This document shows, one piece after another, positions 853 to 36,754 of a DNA stretch of 36,754 nt; positions within the stretch are counted from its first letter, which is position 1; every line of letters starts with the position of its first letter. The notes under the pieces are model-generated. The model did no database searches. It worked only from the letters and a program-made list of their open reading frames with translations, and was not told where the DNA came from. The translations under genes and the position numbers were made by a program. Origin of the DNA: Clostridiales bacterium (GTDB taxonomy: Bacteria > Bacillota > Clostridia > Lachnospirales > JAQSXR01); assembly GCA_029256575.1 (NCBI GenBank), contig JAQSXR010000022.1, forward strand, positions 1 to 36,754, in the 5' to 3' direction.

Positions 853-879
853 TAAGTTTTATTAAAACAATGTCGATAT
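853..879 (+). promoter_or_regulatory. Sigma-D (sigma-28) promoter of second flagellin
   Basis: TAAG (853-856), a spacer of exactly 15 bases, then GTCGATAT (872-879). The known sigma-D consensus is TAAA-N15-GCCGATAT, so this differs at one base in each box. It lies 82 bases before the flagellin start codon, giving an untranslated leader of roughly 75 bases. The site looks intact although the gene it serves is broken. Confidence 0.85.
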
Positions 880-1981: not shown

Positions 1982-1994
1982 GTAGGTGAAAATA

Positions 1995-3893
1995 ATGTCA
2001 AATATCATTTTTGATAATAATATAGAAGCTTTGAAAAAGAAAGGCTTTCCTTGTGAGAGCATATTGGAACAAAAGGATAAATATGAAATAGATAATACTT
2101 TTGAGTTTGTAGAAGCGAAAGATAAAAATCTTATTTTAAAATATAAGAATGATAAAGAAGTGTATTTTAATAGTACTTACAGACCAATCGAGGAAGCAAA
2201 GAAATGGGCTGAGCAATATAGAAACAAAGAAAAAAATAAAGTTTCTATAATATATGGGTTTGGCAGTGGATACCAAGTAGAGGAATTAGTAGAAGATTTA
2301 ACAGAAAATGATATTATGATAGTATACGAACCAAGTATAAATATTTTCATAAAATTATTGCTATGTAGAGATATAACACATCTTATTGCGAATGAACAAG
2401 TTATCATTATAGTGAATGAAATTAATGATGACAAATTTAGAAGATATCTATCGATCGAAATAAAATGGTTTAATTTGGAAAGAACCAAAATAATTGACCT
2501 TCCACAATATTTAAATATCTTTTCAGAGCAATACGATAAAGTGCTCAGTGACTTTAAAAAGGAAGTAGTTGCACAAGTTGGAAATACAGCAACACTAATT
2601 GCTAGAGCAAAAGACAGAATAGGAAATATCATCTGTAATTTACAACAATTTAAAAGAATAAACACAATAAATGAACTTATAGGGAAATTCAACAATGATA
2701 TTCCTTTTATAGTTGTTTCCGCGGGACCATCATTAATTAAGAATATTGATATTCTTCATGAGGCAAAAGGAAAAGCGTTTATATGTGCAACTGATACAGC
2801 AGCAAAGGTAATGTTAAAACATAATATTATACCAGATGTTTATGTTTGTGTGGATCCGATTAAGTTTGATATTCTTGAAATAGATGATGAGAGAGTATGG
2901 GATATACCTGTAGTATGTTCTGTTACTAGTCACTACAAATTATTAAGAGAATCAAAGGGTAAGATAATTTTATTTAATGAAGGACATGAAATAGTAAGTA
3001 GGTTAATAAAAGGAAAAGGGAAAGAATGTGATGCATTAGGATCAGGGGGATCTGTGGCACATAACGCATTTGCATTAGGCCGATTCTTGAATTTTAAGAG
3101 AATTGTTTTAATTGGACAAGATCTTGCATTTACGAATAATAAAACTCACATAGAGGGTGCTTTTTCTGATTTGTCTGTTTCAACTCAAACCAAAGAAAAT
3201 GAGATTTATGTTGAAGATATAAATGGAGACATGGTATTAACAAGGTTTGACTTTAAAGCATATTTAGACTGGTTTGAAAGAGAGATACATGCTCTTAAGG
3301 ATGAAGTTGAAGTAATCGATGCTACAGAAGGTGGGGCAAAGATTCATGGAACTGAAATAATGACCTTACGAGAAGTAATTGACAAGTATTGTATTGAAGA
3401 GGATAAAGTATCTGAAATAATAAATGAAATGGATAATTTGTTTTCTGAAAAGGATTATGATTATATTGATAAAGAAATCAGTAAACTTAAGACAAGGATT
3501 TGTACATTAGCCAAGAAGGCAAAAAAAGCTAAAGTTGCTAACATTAAAAGGTATGATTATTTTACTAAGAAAATGTTTGGTAATTCTAAATTTATCAAAG
3601 CAGAAGATGATTTAGAAAAACTTGATAAATATATAAATAATTCACCCGATATGGTTTTTATAGATGATTTAATAATAGGTTCTGAGTACATTATGGTAAG
3701 TGAAAGTTCTGGTCTTGCAGCAGATGATCCTGAAGCAATCAAGAAGCGTGTTGAAAATAAAAACACACTATATGATCAAATTGATATTGCTGTGAAGAGA
3801 GTCTTAGCTACATTTGAAAGTGTAGAAAGTGGAAAGTACTTTGAAGAAGAAAATTATGGTGTAATACCAGAGGATAGAGTATCAGATAAATAA
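1995..3893 (+). CDS. Maf-type flagellin glycosyltransferase (motility accessory factor)
   Basis: Encodes 632 residues. The ATG at 1995 is preferred over the in-frame GTG at 1986, because that GTG is part of the AGGTGA ribosome site. The middle (from about residue 235) has the signature of the Maf/DUF115 family: IPFIVVSAGPSL, then FICATDTAAKVML, IPDVYVCVDP, GSGGSVAHNAF and LIGQDLAF. Family knowledge: Maf proteins transfer nonulosonic acids (pseudaminic or legionaminic) to serine or threonine of flagellin in the cytoplasm before export, using a sialyltransferase-like fold. An N-terminal region with GFGSGYQVEEL precedes the core and a lysine-rich helical region follows. The position beside flagellin, flaG, fliD and fliS fits this role. 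The exact sugar cannot be read here, but legB at 35275 suggests a legionaminic-type donor. Confidence 0.88.
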   Translation: MSNIIFDNNIEALKKKGFPCESILEQKDKYEIDNTFEFVEAKDKNLILKYKNDKEVYFNSTYRPIEEAKKWAEQYRNKEKNKVSIIYGFGSGYQVEELVEDLTENDIMIVYEPSINIFIKLLLCRDITHLIANEQVIIIVNEINDDKFRRYLSIEIKWFNLERTKIIDLPQYLNIFSEQYDKVLSDFKKEVVAQVGNTATLIARAKDRIGNIICNLQQFKRINTINELIGKFNNDIPFIVVSAGPSLIKNIDILHEAKGKAFICATDTAAKVMLKHNIIPDVYVCVDPIKFDILEIDDERVWDIPVVCSVTSHYKLLRESKGKIILFNEGHEIVSRLIKGKGKECDALGSGGSVAHNAFALGRFLNFKRIVLIGQDLAFTNNKTHIEGAFSDLSVSTQTKENEIYVEDINGDMVLTRFDFKAYLDWFEREIHALKDEVEVIDATEGGAKIHGTEIMTLREVIDKYCIEEDKVSEIINEMDNLFSEKDYDYIDKEISKLKTRICTLAKKAKKAKVANIKRYDYFTKKMFGNSKFIKAEDDLEKLDKYINNSPDMVFIDDLIIGSEYIMVSESSGLAADDPEAIKKRVENKNTLYDQIDIAVKRVLATFESVESGKYFEEENYGVIPEDRVSDK

Positions 3894-25985: not shown

Positions 25986-26125
25986 CAGTAATGAATTTAA
26001 TATTTACCGTAGACAGTAGGTGCTCATTAGAGCGTAAGCGTTAACGCCTACCGAGGAGTTAATAACTCACTTAATGAGTGCATAATGACTATATGCCTCT
26101 CTGTCTATGATAGAGAGGCTTTTTT
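25986..26125 (+). promoter_or_regulatory. L10 (rplJ) leader with attenuator
   Basis: The leader has a branched region around TACCGTAGACAGTAGGTGC and GCGTAAGC followed by GCCTACCGAGGAG, as in Firmicutes L10 leaders. Its 3' end is a terminator: GCCTCTCT (26095-26102) pairs with AGAGAGGC (26112-26119), then TTTTTT. GTAGACAG (26009-26016) can pair with CTGTCTAT (26101-26108), part of the terminator, giving an antiterminator alternative. Known biology: the L10-L12 complex binds the leader and favours termination. About 330 bases separate rplA and rplJ and this element fills most of that space. Confidence 0.85.
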
Positions 26126-26179
26126 AATGCAATTGCTAAACGAAGAAATTCGTAGCAAATAATATAAGGAGGTACACCA

Positions 26180-31486: not shown

Positions 31487-34400
31487 ATGTCGACAAACAA
31501 TGTGATTGATCAACCGATGGTATTTGATTCAATTAAAATTGGATTAGCATCACCAGAAAGAATTAGAGAATGGTCTCATGGCGAAGTAAAAAAACCTGAG
31601 ACAATCAACTATAGAACACTTAAACCAGAAAGAGATGGTTTATTCTGTGAAAAAATATTTGGACCAAGCAAGGACTGGGAATGTCATTGCGGTAAATATA
31701 AGAAAATAAGATACAAAGGTGTAGTATGTGATCGTTGTGGAGTAGAAGTTACGAAATCTAAAGTTAGAAGAGAACGTTTAGGACACATCGAACTTGCAGC
31801 ACCAGTTTCTCATATTTGGTATTTTAAAGGAATTCCTAGTAGAATGGGATTAATCCTTGATATATCACCTAGAACCCTTGAAAAAGTATTATACTTTGCA
31901 TCTTATATTGTACTTGATCCAGGTGAAACAGGATTGCTTTACAAACAAGTATTAACAGAACCAGCTTATAGAGAAGCATATGATAAATATGGAAATAAGT
32001 TTAGAGCTGGTATGGGTGCTGAATCAATAAAAGAATTATTAGAAGCAATTGATCTCGAAGGAGAATCAGTTGAACTGAAAAAAGGTCTTAAGGATTCAAC
32101 AGGCCAAAAGAGAGCTAGAATAATTAAAAGACTTGAAGTTATAGAAGCGTTCAGACTTTCTGGAAATAAACCAGGATGGATGATTATGACTGTTGTTCCA
32201 GTTATTCCACCAGATCTTAGACCAATGGTTCAATTAGATGGTGGTAGATTTGCTACTTCAGACTTAAATGACTTATATAGAAGAGTTATAAATAGAAATA
32301 ATCGTTTAAAGAGACTACTTGAACTTGGAGCTCCAGACATTATCGTAAGAAATGAAAAGAGAATGTTACAAGAAGCAGTAGACGCTTTAATTGATAATGG
32401 TAGACGTGGACGTCCAGTAACTGGCCCAGGTAATAGAGCACTTAAATCTTTATCCGATATGTTAAAAGGTAAGCAAGGACGTTTCCGTCAAAACTTACTT
32501 GGAAAACGTGTTGACTATTCAGGTCGTTCCGTTATCGTTGTAGGACCAGAATTAAAGATTTATCAATGTGGTCTTCCAAAAGAAATGGCAATAGAATTAT
32601 TCAAACCGTTTGTTATGAAAAGACTTGTAGCGGATGGTATGGCACATAATATTAAATCTGCTAAGAAAATGGTTGAAAAACTTCAATCAGATGTATGGGA
32701 TGTATTAGAAGACGTAATTAAGGAACATCCAGTTATGCTTAACCGTGCTCCTACACTTCATAGATTAGGAATACAAGCATTCGAGCCAGTACTAGTAGAA
32801 GGTAGAGCAATTAAACTTCACCCATTAGTATGTACAGCATATAATGCTGACTTTGACGGTGACCAGATGGCTGTTCACGTTCCACTTTCTGTAGAAGCTC
32901 AATCTGAATGTAGATTCTTATTATTATCACCAAACAACTTATTGAAACCATCAGATGGTACACCAGTTGCAGTTCCTTCACAGGATATGGTACTTGGTAT
33001 TTACTATTTAACTCTTGAAAAACCAGGAGCAAAAGGAGAAGGTAAGTACTTTAAGAGTAAAAATGAAGCTTTCCTTGCTTATGAAAACGATGAATTAACA
33101 CTTCACTCAAGAATTAATGTAAGAAGAGTTTTGAATAGAAATGGTGTTGATGAACACAAAACAATTTCTACTACTTTAGGTCATATGCTATTTAATGAAG
33201 TAATTCCACAGGATTTAGGATTTGTTGATAGATCAATTCCAGATAATGAATTTTTATATGAAATTGATTTCTTATGTGGAAAGAAACAATTAAAGAATAT
33301 TCTTGATAAATGTATTAATACACATGGATCAACTATGACAGCTGAAGTATTAGATGGTATTAAGAAATTAGGTTATAAATTTGCAACACGTAGTGCAATT
33401 ACTGTATCTGTATCAGACATGGAAGTTCCTGCAGCAAAAAAGGAAATCATCCAAGATGCAGAAGGAAATATTGAAAAAATCACAAAGAACTTTAGACGTG
33501 GTCTTATTACGAACGAAGAACGTTATAAAGAAGTAATTGATATATGGAAAAATGCAGATGATAAAATAACAAAAGAACTATTAGGTAACTTAAATAAATA
33601 TAATAATATATTCATGATGGCTGACTCTGGAGCCCGTGGATCTGATAAGCAGATTAAACAGCTTGCAGGTATGCGTGGACTTATGGCAGATACATCAGGA
33701 CGTACACTTGAATTACCAATCAAGTCAAATTTCCGTGAAGGTCTTGACGTACTTGAATACTTTATATCAGCACATGGTGCTAGAAAAGGTCTTGCCGATA
33801 CAGCACTTCGTACAGCCGATTCAGGATATTTAACTCGTCGTCTTGTTGACGTATCACAAGAAGTTATTATTAAAGAAGTTGATTGTTGTGAAGGAAAAGA
33901 AATCTCAGGAATGGTTATTAAAGCATTCATGGATGGAGCAGAAACAATTGAAAGTTTACAAGAAAGACTTACAGGAAGATATGCTGCTGAAAATGTAGTT
34001 CATCCAGAAACGGGAGAACTTCTTTGCAAAGCAAACCATATGATATATCCAAGAAGAGCGGAAGCGATTGTTAAAGCTGGTGTTACTAGTGTAAAACTTC
34101 GTACTGTACTTTCATGTAAATCAAAAGTTGGTGTATGTGCCAAATGTTATGGTGCTAACATGGCTACAGCGTTACCAGTTCAAGTTGGTGAAGCAGTTGG
34201 TATTATCGCGGCTCAATCAATTGGAGAACCAGGTACACAGCTTACAATGCGTACATTCCATACAGGTGGTATAGCTGGAGATGATATAACACAAGGTCTT
34301 CCTCGTGTTGAAGAAATTTTTGAAGCTAGACGTCCAAAAGGTCTTGCAATTATTGCAGAATTTGCTGGTATCGCAACAATAAAAGAAACAAAGAAGAAAA

Positions 34401-35077
34401 AAGAAGTTATCATTACAAGTAATGAAACAGGCGAAGCAAAAGCATATTTAATCCCATATGGTTCAAGAGTAAAAGTTCAAGATAATGACCAAATGGAACC
34501 TGGTGATGAAATAACTGAAGGTAGTGTAAATCCTCATGATATCTTGAAAATTAAAGGTATGCGTCCATTACAAGATTACATGATTCAAGAAGTTCAAAGA
34601 GTTTATCGTTTACAAGGTGTTGAAATAAATGATAAGCATATTGAAGTAATTCTTCGTCAAATGCTTAAAAAGAATAGAATTGAAGAAAAGGGTGACACTG
34701 AATTCTTGCCAGGATCATTGGTAGACATTTTAGAAATTAACGAAGTGAATGCACAAATGATTGAACAAGGGTTAGAACCAGCTGAGGCAAATCAAGTATT
34801 GCTTGGTATAACAAAAGCATCACTTGCTACGAACTCATTCCTTTCAGCAGCTTCATTCCAAGAGACTACTAAAGTTCTTACGGAAGCAGCAATTAAAGGA
34901 AAGTCAGATCCACTTCTTGGTCTAAAGGAAAACGTTATTATTGGTAAATTAATTCCTGCAGGTACAGGTATGAAGAGATATCAATCTGTAAGATTGGATA
35001 ATGAAGATACTACCAATATGGAAGTATTGATTGATTCAATGGATGAAGCGGATGAAGATTTATTTGAACAAGTATAA
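31487..35077 (+). CDS. rpoC: DNA-directed RNA polymerase subunit beta'
   Basis: Encodes 1196 residues from ATG 31487 behind AAAGGAG. The first zinc site is Cys66, Cys68, Cys81 and Cys84. The catalytic magnesium loop [13 protein letters not shown] has Asp455, Asp457 and Asp459. The second zinc site cysteines appear in [21 protein letters not shown] near residue 880. The trigger loop region [16 protein letters not shown] follows. Length is typical for Firmicutes without the large insertion found in Gammaproteobacteria. Acidic C terminus [11 protein letters not shown]. Confidence 0.98.
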
Positions 35078-35106
35078 ATAATAAAAGACTACGTCTTTAT
35101 TGAACG

Positions 35107-35147
35107 ATACCCCTTATGTTAGATATATAATCTAATATAGGGGGTAT
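35107..35147 (+). terminator. Hairpin after rpoC, probable terminator
   Basis: A 17-bp stem (35107-35123 with 35131-35147) containing CCCC/GGGGG, 7-base loop TATATAA. The T-run after it is weak (TGTAAAAT), so termination may be partial. Located 29 bases after the rpoC stop. Confidence 0.7.
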
Positions 35148-35170
35148 TGTAAAATAACGAGGTAGTTTTT

Positions 35171-35199
35171 TTGACATCAAAAAATAATAATGTTAAAAT
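35171..35199 (+). promoter_or_regulatory. Sigma-A promoter upstream of legB
   Basis: TTGACA (35171-35176), spacer of 17 bases, TAAAAT (35194-35199). A near-consensus vegetative promoter. A sigma-D-type promoter lies directly downstream. Confidence 0.8.
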
Positions 35200-35213
35200 T
35201 AGATATTACTATA

Positions 35214-35240
35214 TAGAATAATAGGTTGTTTTGCCGATAA
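35214..35240 (+). promoter_or_regulatory. Sigma-D (sigma-28) promoter upstream of legB
   Basis: TAGA (35214-35217), a spacer of 15 bases, then GCCGATAA (35233-35240), the exact -10 consensus of sigma-D. It lies 34 bases before the legB start. The same spacing and -10 core occur upstream of the second flagellin and flaG. Confidence 0.75.
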
Positions 35241-35274
35241 ATTATATTATAAATACATTTGAAAAGGAGAAATT

Positions 35275-36258
35275 ATGGGAAAGAAAGTATTGATAACAGG
35301 TTCAGATGGGTTTATTGGTAGTCATGTAACGGAAAAATTAATTGAAGAGGGTTATGATGTTAGGGCCTTTGTTTTTTATAATTCCTTTAACAATTGGGGA
35401 TGGCTCGATACATTTCCAAAAGATAAATTAAAAAATATTGATATTTTTACAGGGGATGTTAGAGACCCAAATGGTGTTCGAAAAGCAATGGAAGGGATTG
35501 AAGAGGTATATCACTTAGCTGCTTTGATTGCAATACCGTTTAGTTACCATTCACCTGATTCATATGTGGATACAAATATAAAAGGAACTTTAAATGTATT
35601 ACAGGCAGCAAGAGACTTAGGGACTCAACGTGTACTTGTAACATCGACTTCTGAGGTTTATGGAACAGCACAATATGTTCCAATTGATGAGAAACATCCA
35701 TTACAAGGACAATCACCATATTCAGCAACTAAAATAGGAGCGGATAAATTGGCAGAAAGTTTTTATAGAAGCTTTAATTTACCAGTTACAATTGTAAGAC
35801 CGTTTAATACCTATGGTCCAAGACAATCTGCAAGAGCCGTAATTCCAACGATTATAACTCAATTACTCGCTGGAAAAGAAGAGATTAAGTTAGGATCATT
35901 ATCCCCAACAAGAGATTTCAATTTTGTAAAAGATACAGCAAATGGATTCTTGGAAATAGCAAAGTCGACGAAAACGATTGGTGAAGAAATAAACATTGCA
36001 ACGGGAGAAGAGATATCAATAGGTAATTTGGCAAATGAATTGATTCGTCAGATAAATCCAAATGCACGAATAATCTGCGAGGAAGATCGATTAAGACCAG
36101 AGAATAGTGAAGTTAATCGATTGTTAGGGTGTAATAAAAAGATAAAAGAATTAACAAATTGGGAAGCTCAATATTCATTCTCACAAGGACTTTCAGAGAC
36201 GATAGAATTTTTAAAGAATAATATGGATAAGTATAAAACAGACATCTACAACATGTAA
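35275..36258 (+). CDS. legB: NAD-dependent nucleotide-sugar 4,6-dehydratase, LegB-type
   Basis: Encodes 327 residues from ATG 35275 behind AAAAGGAGAAATT. Extended short-chain dehydrogenase/epimerase: glycine motif VLITGSDGFIGSHV, YHLAALIAIPFSY, catalytic Ser-Tyr-Lys in STSEVYGT and SPYSATKIGADKL, and VRPFNTYGPRQSARAVIPTII. The segment YNSFNNWGWLD and the adjacent CBS-nucleotidyltransferase point to the LegB group, which acts on a GDP- or UDP-GlcNAc intermediate of legionaminic acid synthesis. A generic UDP-glucose 4-epimerase/dTDP-glucose dehydratase is the alternative. The sigma-D promoter supports a role in flagellin glycosylation. The partner aminotransferase LegC is expected beyond the window. 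Confidence 0.78.
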   Translation: MGKKVLITGSDGFIGSHVTEKLIEEGYDVRAFVFYNSFNNWGWLDTFPKDKLKNIDIFTGDVRDPNGVRKAMEGIEEVYHLAALIAIPFSYHSPDSYVDTNIKGTLNVLQAARDLGTQRVLVTSTSEVYGTAQYVPIDEKHPLQGQSPYSATKIGADKLAESFYRSFNLPVTIVRPFNTYGPRQSARAVIPTIITQLLAGKEEIKLGSLSPTRDFNFVKDTANGFLEIAKSTKTIGEEINIATGEEISIGNLANELIRQINPNARIICEEDRLRPENSEVNRLLGCNKKIKELTNWEAQYSFSQGLSETIEFLKNNMDKYKTDIYNM

Positions 36259-36271
36259 AGGGGTTGAAGAA

Positions 36272-36754
36272 ATGGACTTTTCAAAAATGCTAATTAGTGA
36301 AGATTCAACAATTCTAAAAGCCATGCAAGCAATTGACAAAGCAGCAAAACAAATCGTGTTTATTGCAACTCAAAATAAGTTAAAAGCAGTTGTAACGGAT
36401 GGTGATATTAGAAGACATATACTAAAAGGTGGATCGTTAGATGAACCAGTATCCAAAATTGCTAATTATAATCCGAAGTATGTTGCTAGAAAAGACAAAA
36501 ACAAAGCATATGAGCTACTAAAGGGAGGGGCACTAAAGGCAATTCCAGTAGTAAATTCTGCACATGAAATAATTGATATAATCTATGGTATTATGGAGGG
36601 TGTAACAACAAAAAAAGTTTGCGCACCAGTTGTCATAATGGCTGGTGGACTTGGGACAAGATTATATCCATATACAAAAATATTACCAAAGCCACTGATT
36701 CCAATCGGAGATATTCCGATTGTAGAACATATAATTAATAAATTTCAGAATTAT
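36272..36754 (+). CDS. CBS-domain sugar nucleotidyltransferase (PtmE-like), 3' end outside window
   Basis: The frame starts at ATG 36272 behind AAGGGGTTGAAG and is open to the window end: 161 codons are visible. Residues 1-115 form a pair of CBS modules with the motif VVTDGDIRRHI; residues 120-150 begin a nucleotidyltransferase domain with VVIMAGGLGTRLYPYTKILPKPLIPIGDIPIVE, in which GGLGTRL binds the nucleotide. This combination is typical of PtmE, the glucosamine-1-phosphate guanylyltransferase of the Campylobacter legionaminic pathway. It follows legB by 13 bases. Mannose-1-phosphate guanylyltransferase-like function remains possible until the rest is seen. Confidence 0.8.
   Translation, partial: MDFSKMLISEDSTILKAMQAIDKAAKQIVFIATQNKLKAVVTDGDIRRHILKGGSLDEPVSKIANYNPKYVARKDKNKAYELLKGGALKAIPVVNSAHEIIDIIYGIMEGVTTKKVCAPVVIMAGGLGTRLYPYTKILPKPLIPIGDIPIVEHIINKFQNY

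Follow-up and report, generated by a model that had tools for sequence, protein, structure and literature searches.

Legionaminic-type acid is a sugar with which bacteria decorate their flagellar filaments, and the locus described here raises the question of how an operon for such a sugar, located behind rpoC, is transcribed. The window, i.e. the whole stretch of 36,754 nucleotides that was analysed, is an entire contig (C24) and ends at 36754. A sequence-only reading had placed the operon in the flagellar regulon, with a sigma-A and a sigma-D promoter in tandem before its first gene, legB. According to our results this reading is largely right: the sigma-D type box resembles the genome's own flagellar promoters and has counterparts on the flagellum-linked leg operons of relatives. 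What was overstated is the completeness of the sugar pathway.

The gap between rpoC and legB

The last gene upstream of the leg operon is rpoC (31487–35077, forward strand, an ORF of 1196 aa), for which an ortholog was matched in 55 of the 56 genomes searched, our own included. Between rpoC and legB lies a gap of 197 bp (35077–35275), where a terminator, a sigma-A type promoter, a sigma-D type site and the ribosome binding site AAGGAG (Shine-Dalgarno, 35264–35269) follow each other on the forward strand before the ATG of legB at 35275. The intrinsic terminator of rpoC (35083–35171) is very strong (fold −47 kcal/mol, z −9.2) and its T-run extends into the −35 box of the sigma-A type promoter that follows. 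This terminator is not clearly a mobile repeat, as judged over some 1 Mb of genome sequence.

The sigma-A type promoter (35171–35199, forward strand) consists of TTGACA at 35171–35176, a 17-base spacer and TAAAAT at 35194–35199, exactly as read earlier, and the TG at 35191–35192 gives it an extended −10. Transcription from this promoter would be expected to start around 35206. This 11-of-12 match is the sole one between 30000 and 36754, and a match this good has a p of 0.0002 when the 197-bp gap is simulated with a first-order Markov model. The sigma-D (sigma-28) type promoter (35214–35240, forward strand) has TAGA at 35214–35217, a 15-base spacer and GCCGATAA at 35233–35240, again with the elements in the positions first proposed, and an expected start around 35247. 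Measured against the consensus TAAA-N15-GCCGATAW the −10 fits, whereas the −35 has one mismatch. In the same Markov versions of the gap, GCCGATAA alone gave p=0.002 and the full match p=0.009, the latter not fully corrected, given that the earlier reader was free to choose among all gaps of the window.

Sigma-D type sites in this genome and on the leg operons of relatives

About a third of the genome (~0.98 Mb) was read, with 395 upstream gaps. The pattern TA-N17-RYCGATAW was present in six of these: before two hag genes, flgM, the mreB-flgF-flgG-flgJ genes, a gene for a 316-aa protein and legB. The set includes contigs that were picked as flagellar and the proportion is biased by this; in regions not picked for sigma-D sites, the gene for the 316-aa protein was alone in having such a site. 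The promoters of the two hag copies read TAAG-N15-GTCGATAT, that of flgM TAAT-N15-ACCGATAT and that of mreB-flgF-flgG-flgJ TAAT-N15-GTCGATAA. The N15 spacing of the legB site is thus the same as that of the genome's own flagellar sites, as illustrated in the window by the sigma-D type promoter that precedes a flagellin copy (853–879, forward strand, TAAG-N15-GTCGATAT). At the −35 the sites differ, with TAGA at legB as compared to TAAG at hag and TAAT at flgM. The 316-aa protein (L305 9135–10082, minus strand, on contig C58) belongs to no known family and is preceded by a perfect 12/12 box, TAAA-N15-GCCGATAT, which makes it a candidate member of the flagellar regulon.

Other routes to the regulon were less informative. 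Over the whole genome such patterns were about as frequent as their reversed controls, because most of the matches fall inside genes. Genes for MCPs failed as a training set for sigma-D, since 22 of 23 were without a convincing box, and the regulon can therefore not be read from gene function. A sigma-D-like 11/12 match before tuf (with GCCGAGAA) was judged to be probably due to chance, and a perfect match to the pattern on contig C43 (L001) was likewise judged to be chance. FlgM was found (PF04316, 50 bits); no sigD gene turned up in the roughly one third of the genome covered.

Leg operons of relatives were also analysed for sigma-D-like boxes. At 80 named legB loci and five from order-level genomes the operon was traced upstream to its head gene, and a box was counted if it reached p<=0.05 at the operon head, with the window left out of the counts. 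Among 17 flagellum-linked operons 6 had such a box at their head, and among 42 unlinked operons 3 did (Fisher's test, p=0.013). Scoring the case headed by hag itself as negative lowers the first count to 5 and gives p=0.037. Here linked means near hag, maf or other flagellar genes as judged from the available flanks, operons are bounded by gap size only and the loci are phylogenetically non-independent. We take this enrichment as support for, not as proof of, a sigma-D promoter on such operons. The head boxes of two Sedimentibacter operons were perfect (12/12), and in Mobilitalea sibirica TAAT-N15-GTCGATAT is found 74 bp upstream of legB with a p of only 0.11. A scan of the 250 bp before legB in all relatives showed no excess of sigma-D sites, as legB is often internal to its operon, and the operon-head test alone separated linked from unlinked operons. 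In Alkaliphilus, Sedimentibacter and Acetobacterium the maf-leg operons that appear to be sigma-D-driven are headed by a gene for 207 to 216 aa (L022 7504, L024 7466, L028 7444, L035 7507 and L079 6663); no Pfam family matched the two Sedimentibacter copies.

Gene content and state of the sugar pathway

LegB (35275–36258, forward strand) scored 516 bits with TIGR04180, whose cut-off is 475, which upholds its assignment as an NAD-dependent 4,6-dehydratase in the legionaminic pathway. The nucleotidyltransferase gene read after it (36272–36754, forward strand) does encode a CBS pair together with a sugar-1-phosphate nucleotidyltransferase domain, is of the PtmE/LegX type and is cut by the contig end. 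The last 99 bases of C24 recur without a mismatch as the first 99 of contig C15 and have no other match in the assembly, and for this reason we regard C15 as the natural continuation of C24, a join that rests solely on the 99-bp overlap. On C15 the rest of ptmE (L099 1–654) is followed by a NeuD-type acyltransferase gene, legI, legG, legF, an L7Ae-family gene, rpsL, rpsG, fusA and tuf. The NeuD/LegH-type acyltransferase and the LegI synthase (NeuB family) matched TIGR03570 and TIGR03569, respectively, both above cut-off. LegG belongs to the NeuC family, and LegF is a PseF-like cytidylyltransferase that matched the PseF model below cut-off and has about 50% identity to the LegF of relatives. 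From this gene content, legB-ptmE-NeuD-type-legI-legG-legF, the operon between rpoC and the str operon is identified as one for a nonulosonic acid, presumably of the legionaminic type.

The inspection of these genes for legC, legI, legG and legF, as suggested by the sequence-only reading, gave a mixed outcome, with legI and legF in place, legG in place but damaged, and legC missing from the operon. Reading across C24 and C15, no legC was present between legB and legF. The best homologue (C63:91142–92200) is divergent and scores 362 bits against the LegC family cut-off of 420, and LegC still fits it better than any other family. The LegC-like aminotransferase gene on C63 (L165 9122–10264) lies away from the sugar operon, with a shikimate-kinase-like gene behind it. 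In the assembly the 3′ end of legG (L099 2394–3395 on C15) is missing because of a deletion combined with a frameshift. The protein ends after the NIGNRQKGRI motif, and an alignment with 24 relatives showed that about 25 conserved residues are missing; the YGDGTTSEKI motif is found in another frame with an early stop after it. A search for the Epimerase_2 family revealed no second NeuC-type gene in the assembly, and the sole other member, which spans the full family model, is taken to be WecB-like. The damage to legG may be either decay or an assembly error. Since legG is without its 3′ end and legC is outside the operon, the output of donor sugar is uncertain and the working state of the pathway is doubtful.

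The activated sugar is probably used by a Maf-family motility-associated glycosyltransferase (1986–3893, forward strand), a gene that had been noticed at 1995 and that was confirmed with 142 bits to PF01973. The match to the Maf N-terminal domain PF20157 was weak, and the NCBIfam PseD model gave 129 bits, which is below its cut-off. The maf gene adjoins flagellin genes, and the leg operon is about 30 kb away from this hag-maf cluster. Directly before maf a 116-aa protein is encoded (1631–1981) that has no convincing family match; it may act as a partner of Maf, a role that GlfM reportedly has. The flagellin copy behind the 853–879 promoter (890–1580) looks like a pseudogene, as it is split over two frames and is without its middle and last residues. 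Further flagellin copies are found at 2–754 and on contig C26.

Control of the operon, its placement and known systems

Taken together, we consider it probable that the tandem sigma-A and sigma-D promoters drive the leg operon and that its sugar serves Maf-dependent glycosylation of flagellin. The strong terminator would insulate the two-promoter region from rpoC, and the upstream sigma-A promoter would then provide constant transcription from ~35206, that is a floor. Once FlgM is exported and sigma-D is free, late transcription from ~35247 would be added. Both promoters would transcribe legB-ptmE-(NeuD-type acyltransferase)-legI-legG-legF, whose products may yield a CMP-legionaminic-type sugar that is at hand when flagellin is made, and the Maf encoded near the flagellin genes would attach this sugar to flagellin. 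The analysis shows the sequence elements, the gene content of the operon and the enrichment in relatives; the activity of the promoters, dependence on sigma-D, the division of labour into a basal sigma-A and a late sigma-D part, the identity of the sugar and its use on flagellin are inferred.

Possibly, the sigma-A promoter alone works, GCCGATAA is a chance match in the 5′ untranslated region and the operon is expressed constantly. This is in line with a sigma-A promoter that is near-perfect and has an extended −10, with the mismatched TAGA of the sigma-D site and with a p of 0.009 that is not overwhelming across all gaps of the window, and the 11/12 match before tuf illustrates that chance matches do arise. 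However, motifs of the RYCGATAW type occur in only 6 of 395 gaps and four of the five others are flagellar, and in relatives the flagellum-linked leg operons have sigma-D-like promoters; we regard a chance match as the less likely case. Even more improbable, in our view, is a nonulosonic acid made for a target other than flagellin (a capsule, a teichoic-type polymer or the spore surface) with only an incidental link to Maf, given the maf gene that adjoins hag in the same genome, the sigma-D box of legB that has the same form as those of hag, and about 20 relatives in which the leg genes adjoin hag, maf or another flagellar gene. Still, in the 80 relatives the majority of leg operons do not adjoin flagellar genes, the distance of about 30 kb from the hag-maf cluster also fits another target, and in B. 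subtilis the sps genes, which are under sigma-K, provide legionaminic acid for the spore crust (PMC7439481).

A decaying pathway, in which the promoters serve an operon that is partly dead, is compatible with the tandem-promoter explanation and concerns the output rather than the control. The truncated and frameshifted LegG is the sole NeuC-type gene product found in the assembly, the closest homologue of LegC lies on a different contig and scores under the family cut-off, and the flagellin copy at 890–1580 is disrupted. On the other hand maf and the remaining five genes of the operon are intact, the legG damage may be an assembly or sequencing error and the LegC homologue outside the operon matches LegC above any other family, which leaves decay as the less likely state of the pathway.

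The leg operon parts rpoBC from the L7Ae-rpsL-rpsG-fusA-tuf operon (35077–35275 and L099 4180–4559) in what is among the most conserved gene neighbourhoods. Roughly 1.5 kb downstream of rpoC was examined at 30 loci, own included, and rpsL directly follows rpoC in 17 of the 29 order-level relatives; legB follows it in none of the 80 named relatives and in none of the order-level ones. The genus consists of this genome only. No relative has the rpoC-legB junction, and direct conservation therefore lends no support to the box. The neighbourhood of leg genes and rpoBC is shared with relatives, as in G040, where a leg operon is upstream of nusG-rplKAJL-rpoBC, and in L083, where hag, maf, leg genes and rpoB are within one 21-kb stretch; the exact position was seen only in this genome. 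The str operon has its own promoter (TTGACA-17-TAAACT), and a Ribosomal protein L10 leader (RF00557) precedes rplJ at 25989–26134. We tentatively suggest that the sugar operon may have left a flagellar locus for the gap between rpoBC and str and either kept or re-evolved its sigma-D promoter under a housekeeping promoter, so that membership in the regulon outlived linkage, a history that we hold possible and somewhat doubtful.

If the proposed control is true, the supply of donor sugar is coupled to the expression of late flagellar genes, and this in a lineage that is without close relatives in the searched set. The locus would then also be a glycosylation operon outside the flagellar cluster but under flagellar control, a case that can be checked. 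Existing knowledge of flagellin glycosylation in Clostridia would be unchanged, as flagellin-glycosylation genes controlled by sigD and dual sigma-A/sigma-28 promoters of flagellin genes are already published and the mechanism is ordinary. In C. difficile 630 the flagellar glycosylation genes CD0240–CD0244 are within the SigD regulon, expression of flagellar glycosylation genes drops 11- to 50-fold when sigD is mutated and the SigD promoter is given as TAAA-N-CCGATAA (PMC3865298). However, the type A glycan is not legionaminic acid and the genes adjoin fliC with no SigD promoter of their own found, whereas the leg operon here is about 30 kb away and has its own tandem promoters. In Butyrivibrio fibrisolvens and Eubacterium/Roseburia a housekeeping (sigma-43) and a sigma-28 promoter precede a flagellum-related gene (PMC3720852). 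The B. fibrisolvens fliC has two promoters, and the sigma-28 consensus, TAAA-N16-17-MCGATAa (PMC3720852), fits the legB site save for the −35 mismatch. There the dual promoters belong to the flagellin gene itself, here to a donor-sugar operon.

The flagellum-linked maf-legB-legC-ptmE-neuD-legI-legG operons of Sedimentibacter, Acetobacterium and Alkaliphilus share the pathway genes, and their heads are preceded by a sigma-D-like box. These operons begin, near hag, with the gene for roughly 210 aa and with maf, and they include legC, whereas the operon here stands by itself, with rpoC on one side and the str operon on the other, and is without legC. Leg and pse pathways are present together with Maf in Clostridium flagellar loci (PMC13317340), and the ptm/leg locus of Campylobacter jejuni has the same LegB, PtmE/LegX, LegI, LegG and LegF set, which there is used on flagellin (PMC13317340), although in another phylum, under other regulation and with the full LegC and LegH set.
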